From a virus, in IMG/VR virus record IMGVR_UViG_3300006919_000335, positions 1 to 27,542 of that record: a stretch of 27,542 nt of DNA. One strand, 5' to 3'. The position numbers were made by a program, and so were the translations under genes. Positions 15,605 to 20,380 of the stretch are shown here, piece by piece. The number at the start of each line of letters is the position of its first letter. Positions within the stretch are counted from its first letter, which is position 1. The notes below the pieces were generated by a model. It was not told the DNA's origin. It saw only the letters and a program-made list of their open reading frames with translations, and made no database searches.

Positions 15605-18600
15605 TTATTGAGTTCTATAAGAAGACATTCCAAGAACAGTTCCAACTTTATTACCATCCATATTAATTATACCCCCTTTTTCTACAGCTGCTACTAAACG
15701 TTCTAATAATTCTACAGTACGAGCATTATCCCCACTTCCACCTCCCATAGGATTAGTAGCTCCTATTACTATATCATCGGGTCTGAATTTTTGAATAGGT
15801 TGGCCTGGTCTTGAGATAAAATCAGAAGCTGTATCGGTAGCGATTTGGGTTTCAGATGTTCCTCCGGTTTCTGCTATTAATGGATTAATACCTTCTGTAT
15901 CGGTTTGACCCCCAAATACGTCAATTGCCATTTGGCCTAAACCAGACATATCAACGTTTTCAGATACTAAGTCAGCAACCATTCTTCCAATATAATCACC
16001 TGCCATACCTCCTAACATAGTACCTACTACTGGTACAGGAATAAGAGATCCTAGTACTGCTCCTAAAGCACCCCCACCCAATCCACCTAAAGCATTTAAA
16101 GTAGCACTACCTACAGTTCTAGGGTCAGCAGCGGATCCTGCGGCTTGAGAAATTTCAAAAGCAGCAATTGCTGGGCCTATTAAAGCTCCTATTCCGGGTA
16201 GCTTTTTCAAAAGTTTACTTACACCACCACCTTTAAAGAATTTTTTAACGTGGGTCATAGGGTTTACAGCATCTAAGGCTTTACCACCCATTTCCATAGC
16301 TTGACCTGCTACACTTTTAACTCCACCAACAGCTTTACTTACTCCTCCCTTAACAAAATCAAATGCTTTACCAAATAAACCACCTCCTCCACTTTTGGCA
16401 GCAGCTGTTGTTGCAGTTTTAGCAGCACCTCCACTTCCTTTAGCTGCGCTTGTTGCTGCTTTAGCAGCACCATCTACTCCACCTCCCATAGATGAAGCAG
16501 CAGCAGCTGCCCCTCCCCCTGCTGTGGTAATATTTTTAGCTAAACTACCTGCTTTACCTACTGCATCTCCAATACCTTTGGCAAAGTTTTTAATACTATT
16601 AATAGCCCCTGAGAGGATATCTTTAAATGAGCTAAATATGCCTTTTAATTTACTTCCAGCAGTTGCCACATTATCAAGATTTCCAGTCATTGCTTTAGCA
16701 GCATCATCTACAGAATTAGAAGCGGCCTTAGCAACGTCGTCTGTGGCATTCATTGCGGCTTTAGCAACGTCATCTGCAGAATTGGCTGCTGATTTAGCCA
16801 CATCATCCATAGAATTAGCAGCAACTTTAGCGGCATCATCTGCTGTTCCTCCTAATTTACCTAAACCTTTACCTAAATCGTCTACTGATCCTCTGGCTCC
16901 CTTAATACTTTTAGTAAATTGTTTAAATTGGGCAATTCCCCTACCTAGTTTCATTAACAATATAGCAGCGGTAAGGGCACCAATTGCTACAGTTAATGCT
17001 GGGATATATTTGGCTAATTGGTTCAGGGCATCCTTCATCCCTGTGATAGCTTCTGTGGGGAATGCAGAAGCCATGGTATCTGCCATTTTTATTTGGGCTT
17101 CTTGAGCTTTTTCTTGTAAAGTTTGAGCTTCAAGTTGTCGAGTTATTTCTTTTGCACCTTCAGTTTCTCTTAATTTTTGTAATGCTTTTTCTCTTAACTC
17201 AACATCTTTAATAGCCATTGCCTCCTCATACTTTTTCTTAACGGCTTCATCAACGCTAGTAGCTCCTTCAACATTTAGGGCATTAAGGGCAGACTGTTGG
17301 ACAAACATGTCCGACATTGATTCTCGAGTCATACCCATTGCTTTGGCAACTGACTCTTGTTCAATGCGGTTCATTTTAGTAAACTTCTCTTGGGTAATGC
17401 CTTGTTTTTGTAATTCTTTACCTAAAGTAACAAGGTCATTATCTAAAGCAGCGGCCCTGGCTTTTTCTAAGTTAAGGTCTCGGCCTAATAATAGTTCGGC
17501 CTCTAATTCGTTTGCAATAGATTGTTCAAAGTCTAATAATCCCCCAGCAATATTATCTAGTTCTCCCATGCTCAAGCCCATCTTCTTGGCTTGATAAGCA
17601 GCTTCAGCTAAATTTTTACCTTGGGCTTGGGTAGAAAGTTTAACTGCATTAGACATATTATTAACATCTTTTAAGATGCCTTTATAATCTATAGCAGTAC
17701 CATTAACGGCATTTAATACTTGAACTGAACCTATTGCTTCGTTAGTAAACTGTTCAAAGTTTTGACCTGAGGCAAGGGAGAATTGATTAAGTTTAGAAGC
17801 TTCATCTGCAGAAACACCCATCTGCTTTGTCATAGCAGTAAAAGTGAGCAATGTTTCTGATGACATTTTGGCTGTAGTACCTAATGCCTGGTTAGCTTCT
17901 ATTAAAGATTTATTTAAGTCTCCAGCTGTTACACCCTGGATAGTATTAGCAGTGTGGATTAATTCTTTTTGGAAATTAATAGCCTCAGTAGTGTTCATAT
18001 TGAGAGACTTCTCAAGAGTTACTGAAGCCTCATCTAATCTATTAAATCCTTCAACTGCAGACTTAATACCAAAAGCAGCTATACCTTTTCCTATATCGGC
18101 AAAAATACCTGTTCCCTTTTTTATATCTAAAAGGGATTTACCCATAGCCTTCATAGTACTATTGCCCTCTACTAACTCATCATTAAATTTATCAGCAGCA
18201 TTAGCTAAACCATCAAAAGCTTTACGTAGAATAGGTACTTCTTGAACCATCTCAGATACCCCTTTAAAAGGGTTAACCTTTTCTATTTCTCGGGTAGTCT
18301 GATGAATGTTTTCAAATTGTTTTTTTACTTCTTCAGATATACTATTTTGTTCCTGAAGTTGTACTAGGGATTCTGCTAAAGCATCTGCTTCATCCATAGC
18401 TTCTTCTCCCCCAATTTCATATAAAGTGTTTATATTTTCCTGAAGGGTGGCTATTTTTGCTGCTCTAGCAGCTGATTCAGCATCTAGTTTAATTAAATCT
18501 GATTTGAATGTTTTTTCAAGACTTAATCCCTTTAATTGATCTTTTGTTAAACCTTGAAGTTTTTTAGCAAGTTTTTCTGCTTGGGTTTGGGATGACTTGA

Positions 18601-18751
18601 AAGTATCTAAAGTATCACCTGATATTTTAGCTGAGTTTTTAGCTGCTTCATTTAAAGCACTGCTAATGCCCCCTAAAGCAGATAATAAGCGGGTAGCTTC
18701 TTGATTAACCTTTTTTAGGTTTTCAGGATTTAAATTAGGATCAAATGCCAT
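15605..18751 (-). CDS. Tail tape measure protein
   Basis: A 1048-aa protein, the longest in the window, with the expected layout. The first roughly 570 residues are helical, Lys/Glu/Ala-rich coiled coil. There is a hydrophobic segment at about 580-604 (IPALTVAIGALTAAILLMKL), an 11-residue repeat block at 638-696, a Gly/Ala-rich tract, and a second hydrophobic region near 880-960 (LGGGALGAVLGSLIPVPVVG). Tape measures fill the tail tube, set its length and are ejected ahead of the DNA. At about 1.5 angstrom per residue this would suit a tail near 150 nm. T4 gp29 is about 590 aa, so this one is much longer. The gene follows a terminator-like hairpin and an AT box only 4 bases before the ATG. Confidence 0.85.
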   Translation of the reverse strand: MAFDPNLNPENLKKVNQEATRLLSALGGISSALNEAAKNSAKISGDTLDTFKSSQTQAEKLAKKLQGLTKDQLKGLSLEKTFKSDLIKLDAESAARAAKIATLQENINTLYEIGGEEAMDEADALAESLVQLQEQNSISEEVKKQFENIHQTTREIEKVNPFKGVSEMVQEVPILRKAFDGLANAADKFNDELVEGNSTMKAMGKSLLDIKKGTGIFADIGKGIAAFGIKSAVEGFNRLDEASVTLEKSLNMNTTEAINFQKELIHTANTIQGVTAGDLNKSLIEANQALGTTAKMSSETLLTFTAMTKQMGVSADEASKLNQFSLASGQNFEQFTNEAIGSVQVLNAVNGTAIDYKGILKDVNNMSNAVKLSTQAQGKNLAEAAYQAKKMGLSMGELDNIAGGLLDFEQSIANELEAELLLGRDLNLEKARAAALDNDLVTLGKELQKQGITQEKFTKMNRIEQESVAKAMGMTRESMSDMFVQQSALNALNVEGATSVDEAVKKKYEEAMAIKDVELREKALQKLRETEGAKEITRQLEAQTLQEKAQEAQIKMADTMASAFPTEAITGMKDALNQLAKYIPALTVAIGALTAAILLMKLGRGIAQFKQFTKSIKGARGSVDDLGKGLGKLGGTADDAAKVAANSMDDVAKSAANSADDVAKAAMNATDDVAKAASNSVDDAAKAMTGNLDNVATAGSKLKGIFSSFKDILSGAINSIKNFAKGIGDAVGKAGSLAKNITTAGGGAAAAASSMGGGVDGAAKAATSAAKGSGGAAKTATTAAAKSGGGGLFGKAFDFVKGGVSKAVGGVKSVAGQAMEMGGKALDAVNPMTHVKKFFKGGGVSKLLKKLPGIGALIGPAIAAFEISQAAGSAADPRTVGSATLNALGGLGGGALGAVLGSLIPVPVVGTMLGGMAGDYIGRMVADLVSENVDMSGLGQMAIDVFGGQTDTEGINPLIAETGGTSETQIATDTASDFISRPGQPIQKFRPDDIVIGATNPMGGGSGDNARTVELLERLVAAVEKGGIINMDGNKVGTVLGMSSYRTQ
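16664..16840 (-). repeat. Five-fold 11-residue repeat in tape measure
   Basis: Five tandem 33-base units encode DD(A/V)AK.A..N. variants (for example DDVAKSAANSA and DDVAKAASNSV), plus a partial sixth, DNVA. An 11-residue period fits a hendecad coiled coil. The DNA units are diverged, so this is not a recent expansion. Confidence 0.8.
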
Positions 18752-18771: not shown

Positions 18772-18797
18772 AAAAAGCATCACTGGGATGCTTTTTT
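18772..18797 (-). terminator. Rho-independent terminator-like hairpin before tape measure gene
   Basis: A perfect 10-bp stem (plus strand AAAAAGCATC and GATGCTTTTT) with a 5-base loop. On the minus strand the stem is followed by T5-C-T5. Because both arms end in A/T runs it could act in both directions. It overlaps the stop codon of the 84-codon frame (18780-18782), so termination would occur right after that gene. Confidence 0.7.
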
Positions 18798-19034
18798 CAT
18801 ATTAGTCGAATAAGTAGGTGACTTTGCTTGTGCGTTTTTTTCCGCTTCTTGCCTAGCAGCCCCCTGAAGCCAGCTTTGGGTTGCTTCTTCTTGTTGTGAA
18901 TTGTTTTTCTTATCGTAAAATTCTTTTATTTTATGAAAGGTAAATTTACGAAGCCACGTAGGCATATTATAAACATCACTCCAAGAATACCCTCCCTGTC
19001 CGTGAAATACAATTTCATGTATTTGAGTAAACAA
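18780..19034 (-). CDS. ATG-less reading frame before tape measure; candidate frameshift extension of the gp26-like gene
   Basis: 84 codons from a TTG at 19034. There is no ATG near the N-terminus; the first in-frame one is within NMPTW. It is the only gene here without an ATG, and it has no AT box. The frame stays open upstream to a TAG beside the T7 run and overlaps the end of the gp26-like gene in the +1 (= -2) frame. The protein has IHEIVFHGQGGYSWSD, NMPTWLRKF, then a charged helix. The 'W, MP, R' pattern recalls the T part of tail-assembly chaperones. It may be made from TTG or, as I favour, as a 97-residue extension by frameshifting at 19074-19080. It lies between tube and tape measure, exactly where such chaperones map. 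Confidence 0.65.
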   Translation of the reverse strand: MFTQIHEIVFHGQGGYSWSDVYNMPTWLRKFTFHKIKEFYDKKNNSQQEEATQSWLQGAARQEAEKNAQAKSPTYSTNMKKASQ

Positions 19035-19059
19035 ATTTTGACGGACTAGGGGTGCCGCC

Positions 19060-19803
19060 TCAGAGGTCAGGCCAAAAAAAGCCTAACTCGATAGGAAGCT
19101 TTACAGTTTCGCTTTCCCCCTCAGCATTTGTTAATACTACATCCATATCAACATCTGGGGCTATATGACTATAGTGTTTTCTAAATTCTCTGACATCTTT
19201 GGCTAAAAAATAGTTGTTAACAAATTCTCTAATATCCTTTCTTTCAGAAGAACCATTAACTGCTATTATAGTATGAGCCAATCTCGTAGTTACGTCAGCA
19301 GAAGTTGATTTACTAATTTTTTTAAGTCCTTTTAATTCAGAATCGATCTTTTTTTCATCGTGACCTGTTAAAAGTTTAAAAGTGATTTTATTTTTAGTGT
19401 GTGGGAGTTCATATTCAAATGAATTTTTTCCTCTTACATAAAGAGTTTCATCTAAAAACTTGTTTTCTAAAGATGCTAAATCAATTTCTTGTTCTGTTCC
19501 ACCGTAAGTAACATCATACTTTCCACCATATGCCAAAACACGTGCCGCAATCATAATTGCATTTTTATCACCCACTAGTAAATCATCATAATTAAATTTT
19601 GTTACAAGTAAGGATTGAAGTAATTTATCAATTACGGATCCGTTTTTGATATAGTTTTGGTTTGTTAAAATGTCTTCCTCTTTAGCAGTCATGTATTTTA
19701 TTTCTACTTTTCCCTCTGCTAAAGGATGACCTTCGGGGTATAAAAGACCTTTTGAAGGTAATTCTATAACCTCTGTTGGTAAATTAAATTGTGTATCACT
19801 CAT
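19060..19803 (-). CDS. T4 gp26-like baseplate/tail assembly protein
   Basis: A 247-aa protein beginning MSDTQFNLPTEVIELPSKG. The N-terminal IELPSKGLLYPEGHPLAEG, the following IKYMTAKEEDIL and the NGSVIDKLLQSLL step are typical of the T4 baseplate-hub assembly family (gp26-type, about 208 aa in T4). An in-frame ATG at 19854 is rejected because it lies in the hairpin at 19843-19870; the AT box 21 bases upstream also favours 19803. The gene ends LGFFWPDL over a run of seven T, four codons before its stop, and may shift into the next frame there to give a protein of about 340 aa. It likely helps build the tail or load the tape measure. Confidence 0.75.
   Translation of the reverse strand: MSDTQFNLPTEVIELPSKGLLYPEGHPLAEGKVEIKYMTAKEEDILTNQNYIKNGSVIDKLLQSLLVTKFNYDDLLVGDKNAIMIAARVLAYGGKYDVTYGGTEQEIDLASLENKFLDETLYVRGKNSFEYELPHTKNKITFKLLTGHDEKKIDSELKGLKKISKSTSADVTTRLAHTIIAVNGSSERKDIREFVNNYFLAKDVREFRKHYSHIAPDVDMDVVLTNAEGESETVKLPIELGFFWPDL
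19074..19080 (-). other. Candidate programmed frameshift site (T7 run)
   Basis: In the gp26-like frame the bases read GGC TTT TTT TGG. A +1 slip of Phe-tRNA from TTT to the next TTT enters the downstream 84-codon frame at GGC (19073) without a mismatch; a -2 slip also works. The run sits in the loop of a 7-bp hairpin (arms GTTAGGC and GCCTGAC, one G-U pair). The zero-frame stop is at 19060-19062. Confidence 0.5.
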
Positions 19804-19842: not shown

Positions 19843-19870
19843 AAAGAAGCGCACTTTCGTGCGCTCCTTT
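19843..19870 (-). terminator. Rho-independent terminator-like hairpin after tail tube gene
   Basis: A 12-bp stem with a GAAA tetraloop on the minus strand (GC core AGCGCAC / GTGCGCT, then one G-U, one G-C and three A-T pairs). A T-rich stretch, TTCTTTATTTC, follows. It lies 21 bases past the tube gene's stop at 19892. It is the most GC-rich intergenic element in the window. Confidence 0.75.
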
Positions 19871-19891: not shown

Positions 19892-20380
19892 TTAGTAATT
19901 CAAGACTGCATAATCGAGTGCAAGTGTTAACGAAATCTCAACTGGGTTTTCAGTGTTGTCGTAGTTGAAATCTCCAAATGTAGCTGCTGTAATAATACAG
20001 CCCTTAAGTACCCATTCACTTACTACATCACCTACAGGACCTAAAAGGTTAAGGGTTAAATCTTTTTTGTAGAAATCAGAGTAACCATCTCTACCTGTTA
20101 CGGATTCGTGTCCTAATCTTACCCATTCCATTACGGTTTGTGCTCCAGAAGGAGTAATTGGATCGTGAAGGGTTAGAGTAACATCATTCCAAGTAGTTTT
20201 ACCTTTGATCTTACGTAAAACGTTGATGTAGTTTATTGTAATTGCGTTTTGGGTAACTCCAATACCACTGATGCCTTTAACTGCATAGCTAGGAATACCA
20301 TCCATATACAATATGAACCTATGTTGTTGTTTGGGTTCAAATGCTGTGAAAAAAATTTCGTTTGAATCTAATACTGCCAT
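19892..20380 (-). CDS. Tail tube protein, gp19-like
   Basis: A 162-aa protein, nearly the same length as T4 gp19 (163 aa). Family features: FEPKQQHRFILYMDGIPSYAVKG near the N-terminus (split here as FEPKQQHRF and ILYMDGIPSY), a central KGKTTWNDVTLTLHDPI, EWVRLG, and LKGCIITAATFGDFNYD followed by a beta-strand LTLALDYAVL. Hexameric rings of this protein stack to form the tube through which DNA passes. It lies right after the sheath gene and is followed by a strong terminator-like hairpin, so it probably forms its own abundant transcript. Confidence 0.93.
   Translation of the reverse strand: MAVLDSNEIFFTAFEPKQQHRFILYMDGIPSYAVKGISGIGVTQNAITINYINVLRKIKGKTTWNDVTLTLHDPITPSGAQTVMEWVRLGHESVTGRDGYSDFYKKDLTLNLLGPVGDVVSEWVLKGCIITAATFGDFNYDNTENPVEISLTLALDYAVLNY

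Follow-up and report, generated by a model that had tools for sequence, protein, structure and literature searches.

A G/GT-type tail assembly chaperone gene probably expressed by +1 frameshifting

The window analysed here is a stretch of 27,542 nucleotides from a virus (IMG/VR record IMGVR_UViG_3300006919_000335). Between its tail tube and tape measure genes lies a locus that in all likelihood specifies a G/GT-type tail assembly chaperone in two forms, the long one of which would be made by +1 ribosomal frameshifting. Comparison with related loci reveals two conserved reading frames, an invariant YUU_U core at the shift site, no conserved start for the second frame and, through intermediates, homology to gp26/gp51 of T4. 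The production of two chaperone forms by a frameshift is a well-known phage trick, the forward direction being less usual.

The locus, its proteins and the probable host

On the minus strand of the window, the tail tube gene is followed by ORF1, by an overlapping frame without a start codon and by the tape measure gene:

19892..20380, minus strand: tail tube protein, gp19-like, upstream of ORF1 (PF06841, 1.3e-8; phrog_4542, 2.5e-24)
19060..19803, minus strand: ORF1, gp26-like short chaperone (TAC-N, counterpart of G), 247 aa, from ATG at 19803 to TGA at 19060
19072..19083, minus strand: shift site GGC TTT TTT TGG with the invariant core YUU_U; T7 run at 19080-19074
18780..19073, minus strand: ORF2, the +1-frame extension (TAC-C, counterpart of T), 97 aa from GGC to stop, predicted to be made only after the shift
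15605..18751, minus strand: tape measure protein, 1048 aa, downstream of ORF2 (phrog_167, 4.5e-5, and position)

This gene order, which the first-pass annotation had put forward, is borne out by the PF06841, phrog_4542 and phrog_167 matches, and it is also found in Flavobacterium phage immuto, Microcystis phage Mel-JY01, SP-15 and LIS04. ORF1 ends in ...Gly-Phe-Phe-Trp-Pro-Asp-Leu, encoded by ...GGC TTT TTT TGG CCT GAC CTC TGA, and it is here, as that annotation had seen, that the gp26-like gene (19803-19060) overlaps the start-less frame at GGC TTT TTT TGG (19083-19072). The second frame, +1 or equivalently -2 relative to ORF1, is indeed open upstream as far as the T7 run, directly 5' of which it opens at a TAG (19085-19083). 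Because this TAG closes the +1 frame on the 5' side and the TGA ends ORF1 on the 3' side, any crossing between the frames is confined to 26 nt. Read-through gives a predicted fusion of 243 + 97 = 340 aa, the size estimated earlier.

Judged by its sequence, ORF1 belongs to the T4-like gp26/gp51 family, the link to gp51 running only through a group of nine other T4-like or jumbo phages in which the extension lies in the -1 frame (KVP40, S-SM2, Munch, PA5oct, Atu_ph07, Vibrio 2.275.O, XacN1 and C48C1 among them). PF12322 (T4_baseplate) is matched by 39 of 51 relatives, at best with 2.8e-78; ORF1 of the window itself stays slightly under the cut-off of 24.5 (22.5 bits, E 1e-4) and matches the baseplate hub family phrog_150 at 1.4e-13. 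In profile comparisons the +1 fusions align with the -1 fusions across the junction (99.7%, E 2.6e-27), the -1 fusions align over their length with T4 gp51 (98.5%), and gp26 aligns with the N part, the first 200 residues, of gp51 (99.1%); the direct comparison of +1 fusions with T4 gp51 was not significant. On the basis of these alignments, T4 has a short gene (gp26) and a pre-fused long gene (gp51). The earlier suggestion that gp26 and the small protein following it are the counterparts of G and GT is thereby supported, T4 gp51 being the fused order as one protein, via the -1 group.

The AlphaFold2 model of ORF1 has a pLDDT of 92, and the two best of 614 solved chains for its residues 1-94 are YqbN (3klu, Z 5.7) and the HK97 tail assembly chaperone (2ob9, Z 5.0), the next-best reaching Z 2.4. 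Since a Z under 8 is not decisive, the N-terminal match of the model favours a chaperone fold without proving it. Among the predicted viral relatives are SP-15 (TM 0.81) and a number of T4-like hub assembly proteins. The model of ORF2 consists of helices only and is of low confidence (pLDDT 68).

The window is a genome fragment; in the complete genomes of immuto and Mel-JY01 the gene is in single copy. The nearest isolate is immuto, with 54% identity in ORF1, and 20 of the 21 gene starts of the window are without a Shine-Dalgarno sequence. On these two grounds a Bacteroidota host is probable for this T4-like phage. Bacteroidota ribosomes hide their anti-Shine-Dalgarno, so that gene starts of this kind are as expected, although in many of these bacteria prfB still has its AGGAGG-type frameshift site (PMC8710568). 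A gene for the ribosomal protein bS21 was seen in Mel-JY01 (L003) and in the record of locus L194; it is absent from immuto and from two further large viral records checked. In Bacteroidia, bS21 helps to hide the anti-Shine-Dalgarno.

Conservation of the site and direction of the slip

The coding strand of the window has three T7 runs, so that such a run means little on its own and conservation has to carry the case. A first scan yielded 80 viral contigs, to which named phages were added, and among these were 83 loci with a recognisable extension; a second search round gave 107. The non-redundant set of the +1 group comprises 128 sequences, less than 90% alike and with ORF1 protein identity down to about 40%. 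The extension is in the +1 frame in 83/83 first-round and 105/107 second-round loci, counts that do not amount to independent events because the sequences are related. At the shift site YUU_U is present in all 128 non-redundant loci with the downstream frame in +1; the slippery run, whose conservation had been proposed as a check, is thus conserved.

The site reads TTT TTT in 51 of 53 relatives and TTT CTT in the other two, and the first-round overlap is almost without exception TTT TTT TGG CCT GAC or TTT CTT TGG CCT GAC. Variants in the second round are TTC TTT TGG, TTT TTT TTC, TTT TTT TAC and TTT CTT TAC, and the extension is in +1 in SP-15 (TTT TTT CAC), LIS04 (TTT TTT AGT) and RM378 (TTT TTT TGG) too; scans with SP-15, RM378 and GXN1 proteins gave few or no new loci. 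The codons that follow YUU in the +1 group are UGG, UAC or UUC, all of them sense codons. In a single relative (L074) the 3' end of ORF1 reads AAC TTT TTT TGA CCT GAC; this change of TGG to TGA, either a true variant or a read error, makes the site RF2-like (UUU UGA C). The base preceding the U-run is C in 105/128 sequences of the +1 group, although only about 10% of third positions are C, and would disfavour -1 slippage.

The extension is conserved from its first residue (GLT.E..R..LF.QIHEIVF..GGY.W..VYNMP.WLR), and this conservation begins ahead of any possible shared start codon. Among 53 relatives no start codon proved to be conserved in it, in line with the missing start that had been proposed for checking. 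The more specific statement, that the frame has no ATG and TTG only, stands in part: there is no ATG close to the frame start, while ATGs occur further inside (in ..YNMP..) and the TTG is not a start, its column holding TTG in just 3 of the 53.

That ORF2 is nevertheless a separate small protein, made from a non-ATG start (TTG, CTG, ATT) or by re-initiation, seems very improbable. Nearly all relatives (52/53) have a CTG in the overlap, many have a GGAGG upstream, and an ATG is found at the start of ORF2 in two relatives and in phage LR756511, all of which would suit such a protein. However, the CTG is accounted for by double coding of the overlap and is absent from SP-15, LIS04, GXN1 and the Streptomyces phages; a start upstream of the run is blocked in many relatives, because a +1-frame stop sits directly 5' of it; the lack of Shine-Dalgarno sequences at gene starts of the window speaks against initiation guided by one; and a separate start would leave the requirement for YUU_U unexplained.

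Double coding itself is apparent from codon choice. Among 84 conserved amino-acid columns of ORF1, single-codon usage is strongest at the overlap columns F, F, P and D, with one codon in every sequence bearing that residue; the Asp is GAC in 51/51 sequences, as against about 20% GAC elsewhere. A fixed Pro CCT and Asp GAC are what an overlap coding in two frames predicts. Over codons 9-35, pN/pS is 0.31 in the extension frame versus 1.0 and 1.6 in the other two frames, which also hold stops there; over a short stretch ahead of the TTG column it is weaker, at about 0.6. The extension is annotated as a 36-aa hypothetical protein in immuto (L002, 4836-4946) and as one of 39 aa in SP-15 (L006, 4809-4928), and is without annotation in LIS04 (L113, 2703-2932). 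As several records mislabel or omit the extension, the long chaperone is absent from annotation.

Relatives with a normal ATG on the downstream gene had been named as the finding that would speak against a frameshift. Close by, they occur in two loci only (L102/L132 and L107/L133), where the extension is in the -1 frame with its own ATG; YUU_U is lost in L102 (TTC TTG TAT), and CTT T is retained in L107. Both are nested in the +1 clade, adjoining the +1 relatives L134 and L135, and the split therefore looks derived, in a tree whose deep branches are long and unsure as to how often +1 arose. Since the extension of these two derived relatives has an ATG in a different frame, some phages may be able to do without a covalent fusion. 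Another split was seen in LR756511 (L007), whose ORF2 is in the -1 frame and starts at an overlapping TAATG. In KVP40 and S-SM2, too, an ATG lies near the start of the extension, which makes a separate start possible in these two phages.

The same frame could be reached by a -2 slip on U7, as proposed for Mu, which would add one extra Phe. The first-pass annotation had left the direction as +1/-2; of the two, +1 is upheld, and we regard -2 as improbable. After a -2 slip on U7, pairing of the P-site tRNA is perfect again and the frame reached is identical to that of +1, and even TTT CTT TGG could re-pair as UUC with just a first-position G:U. The sites with a broken U-run speak against it: lineage B with TTC TTT TGG (15 loci in one set and 14 in another, largely the same contigs; 4 non-redundant), LR756508 (AAC TTT CTA), GXN1 (TTC TTT CGT) and the Streptomyces phages BRock/LuckySocke (CTG TTT CGC/CAG) all keep the +1 frame, yet their landing codons after -2 mispair, and acceptable re-pairing follows only after +1. 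Furthermore, the invariant part is YUU_U and not the Us further upstream.

That the frames are joined by transcriptional slippage on T7, or by a homopolymer sequencing error, has a negligible chance of being right. A transcript with 6 T or 9 T would be in frame; nevertheless, the T-runs are broken by C in relatives, and sites with runs of only 3-4 T (TTCTTTTGG, TTTCTTTGG, TTTCTATTC) keep the frame relation. As to sequencing error, finished genomes of isolated phages show the same state, as do more than a hundred independent assemblies.

Signals around the site

Codon-choice outliers of ORF1 cluster in the 40 nt before and the 15 nt after the site. Three further elements of the window are of interest here:

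19114..19122, minus strand: G-rich GAGGGGGAA, at -42 to -34; the GGAGG of most relatives is missing from the window's own subclade
19082..19095, minus strand: possible small hairpin CCUA-UCGAGU-UAGG, its 3' end one base 5' of the T7 run
18772..18796, minus strand: terminator-like hairpin AAAAAGCATC-CCAGT-GATGCTTTTT, spanning the 3' end of ORF2 and immediately preceding the tape measure gene

The upstream hairpin has four base pairs in the window (-3 kcal/mol), and its 3' end mostly lies 2-6 nt ahead of the U-run across relatives. Among the 128 relatives, combining the 5' half from one sequence with the 3' half from another lowers its stability (z -6.2, 0/200), against z -0.8 to +1.3 for control segments. 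This partner-swap test was used because the register of the hairpin varies, which is also why RNAalifold, applied to the ungapped flank, gave no consensus structure. Mononucleotide shuffles of the upstream segment give a z of only -0.2 to -0.65; the excess of folding is partly due to GC-rich codon choice, so that the hairpin rests on covariation and not on stability. A GGAGG within -36 to -12 is found in 66% of sequences, compared with 0-4% in most other stretches of the gene; it lies mostly at -31 or -28 and is missing from the window's own subclade. Downstream, a search for a stimulatory hairpin or pseudoknot gave no strong structure (mean z -1.1 at +12..+92 versus -0.7 in controls).

When a stem-loop sits 4 nt 5' of a shift site, -1 frameshifting is attenuated and +1 frameshifting can be stimulated (PMC5009743, PMC6321510). 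The upstream hairpin, together with GGAGG in many relatives, probably tunes the rate of shifting. The conserved GGAGG and the covarying mini-hairpin appear to be new. We know of no stimulator with the 28-31 nt spacing of this GGAGG.

A terminator-like hairpin similar to that at the end of the extension, with differing stem sequences, occurs in 25/49 relatives, and it may lower transcription of the tape measure gene relative to the chaperone. A strong hairpin, AGCGCAC-TTTC-GTGCGCT, was also observed between the tube gene and ORF1 (19848-19865). It is terminator-like on the plus strand, with TTCTTTATTT following on the coding strand, and in SP-15 a terminator is annotated at the equivalent position.

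Known systems and the place of this family among them

The locus shares with lambda G/GT, P2 E/E', HK97 gp13/14 and many siphophages its position between tube and tape measure, the start-less downstream frame and, as predicted here, a short chaperone with a long form made by a shift; the HK97 chaperone adds the weak fold match to the N-terminus of ORF1. In contrast to lambda G/GT, ORF1 is 247 aa long, belongs with PF12322 and has extra domains. Lambda G/GT and its relatives shift -1 (PMC5009743), unlike the +1 site at YUU_U of the window: ORF2 is in +1 and the site is C_UUU_UUU_U, not the X_XXY_YYZ of a lambda-type slip. The -1 GTTTTT site of Vandenendeviridae (PMC12846349) likewise lies where a chaperone gene overlaps a C-terminal extension and differs in direction. 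Closer to the window, KVP40 and the other members of the -1 group have the same overlap, family and Phe-Phe position, which reads U_UUU_UUY with ORF2 in -1 and U before the run, versus C in the +1 group.

As to T4, PMC10885494, citing Vladimirov et al. 2022, presents the T4-like gp26/gp51 chaperones as a short and a pre-fused long gene. By way of the intermediates, gp51 corresponds to an in-frame fusion of ORF1 and ORF2 and gp26 to ORF1 alone. T4 thus has two genes and no frameshift, whereas here there is one gene, in one copy in complete relatives, with a predicted frameshift. Vladimirov et al. (2022, Virology 566:9-15) reportedly described T4-like chaperones and the G/GT reading of gp26/gp51 (PMC10885494, PMC12846349). 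Among the other papers searched, none describes a +1 site in T4-like chaperones.

The site itself is reminiscent of RF2. In prfB a +1 slip takes place at a P-site CUU_U, UUU_U being a rare natural variant in a minority of species (PMC5009743), and the site of Flavobacterium johnsoniae is AGGAGG UAU CUU UGA C (PMC8710568). The loci studied here share the P-site CUU_U/UUU_U (128/128) and, in many relatives, a purine-rich GGAGG upstream. They differ in that RF2 has UGA in the A site, where the window group has UGG/UAC/UUC (UGA only in L074); in that the RF2 Shine-Dalgarno is 3 nt from the shift codon, as opposed to 28-31 nt between GGAGG and the run; and in that RF2 autoregulates, which is not implied for the chaperone site. 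Other +1 shifts in phage structural or assembly genes are that of the chaperone of the archaeal myovirus HSTV-2, very likely +1, and those of Listeria PSA cps/tsh (PMC5009743), the latter in genes for capsid and tail-shaft proteins, where the slip takes place at a proline codon.

From the comparisons we infer that the fusion is made, and likewise its amount, its binding partners and the roles of hairpin and GGAGG. Most ribosomes would finish ORF1 and release the short chaperone of 247 aa. In a minority, the peptidyl-tRNA on UUU (or CUU), with UGG/UAC/UUC waiting, would slip one base forward onto UUU, and subsequent reading in the +1 frame would give the 340-aa long form with its helical C-terminal domain, the C ahead of the U-run keeping -1 slippage down. 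By analogy with lambda, many short copies would coat the tape measure protein and few long copies would recruit tube subunits. The weak points for a +1 slip are that none of UGG, UAC and UUC is a known slow codon here and that the A site is without a stop except in L074.

The G/GT-type chaperone is ordinary in kind; what appears to be new is its form, with the +1 direction at an RF2-like site that has a sense codon, and with a possible 5' signal. It could tentatively be imagined, although we would not rate it as the likelier outcome, that this is a new type of +1 signal, YUU_U with a sense codon, driven by a small hairpin about 3-5 nt 5' of the U-run and, 28-31 nt upstream, by a GGAGG, the phages having hosts in which the ribosome normally conceals its anti-Shine-Dalgarno, and that a single family has moved between -1 shifts, +1 shifts, split genes and duplicated genes to meet its need for two products. 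Although T4 is the textbook exception to the G/GT solution, that solution would be alive, in the forward direction, in a large and mostly uncultured branch of T4-like phages. The family can be regarded as a natural experiment, with one Phe-Phe position tuned for -1 (U_UUU_UUY), for +1 (C_UUU_YUU_U), for separate genes or for duplication, and if the upstream hairpin and GGAGG matter, it would allow control of +1 shifting from the 5' side to be put to the test.
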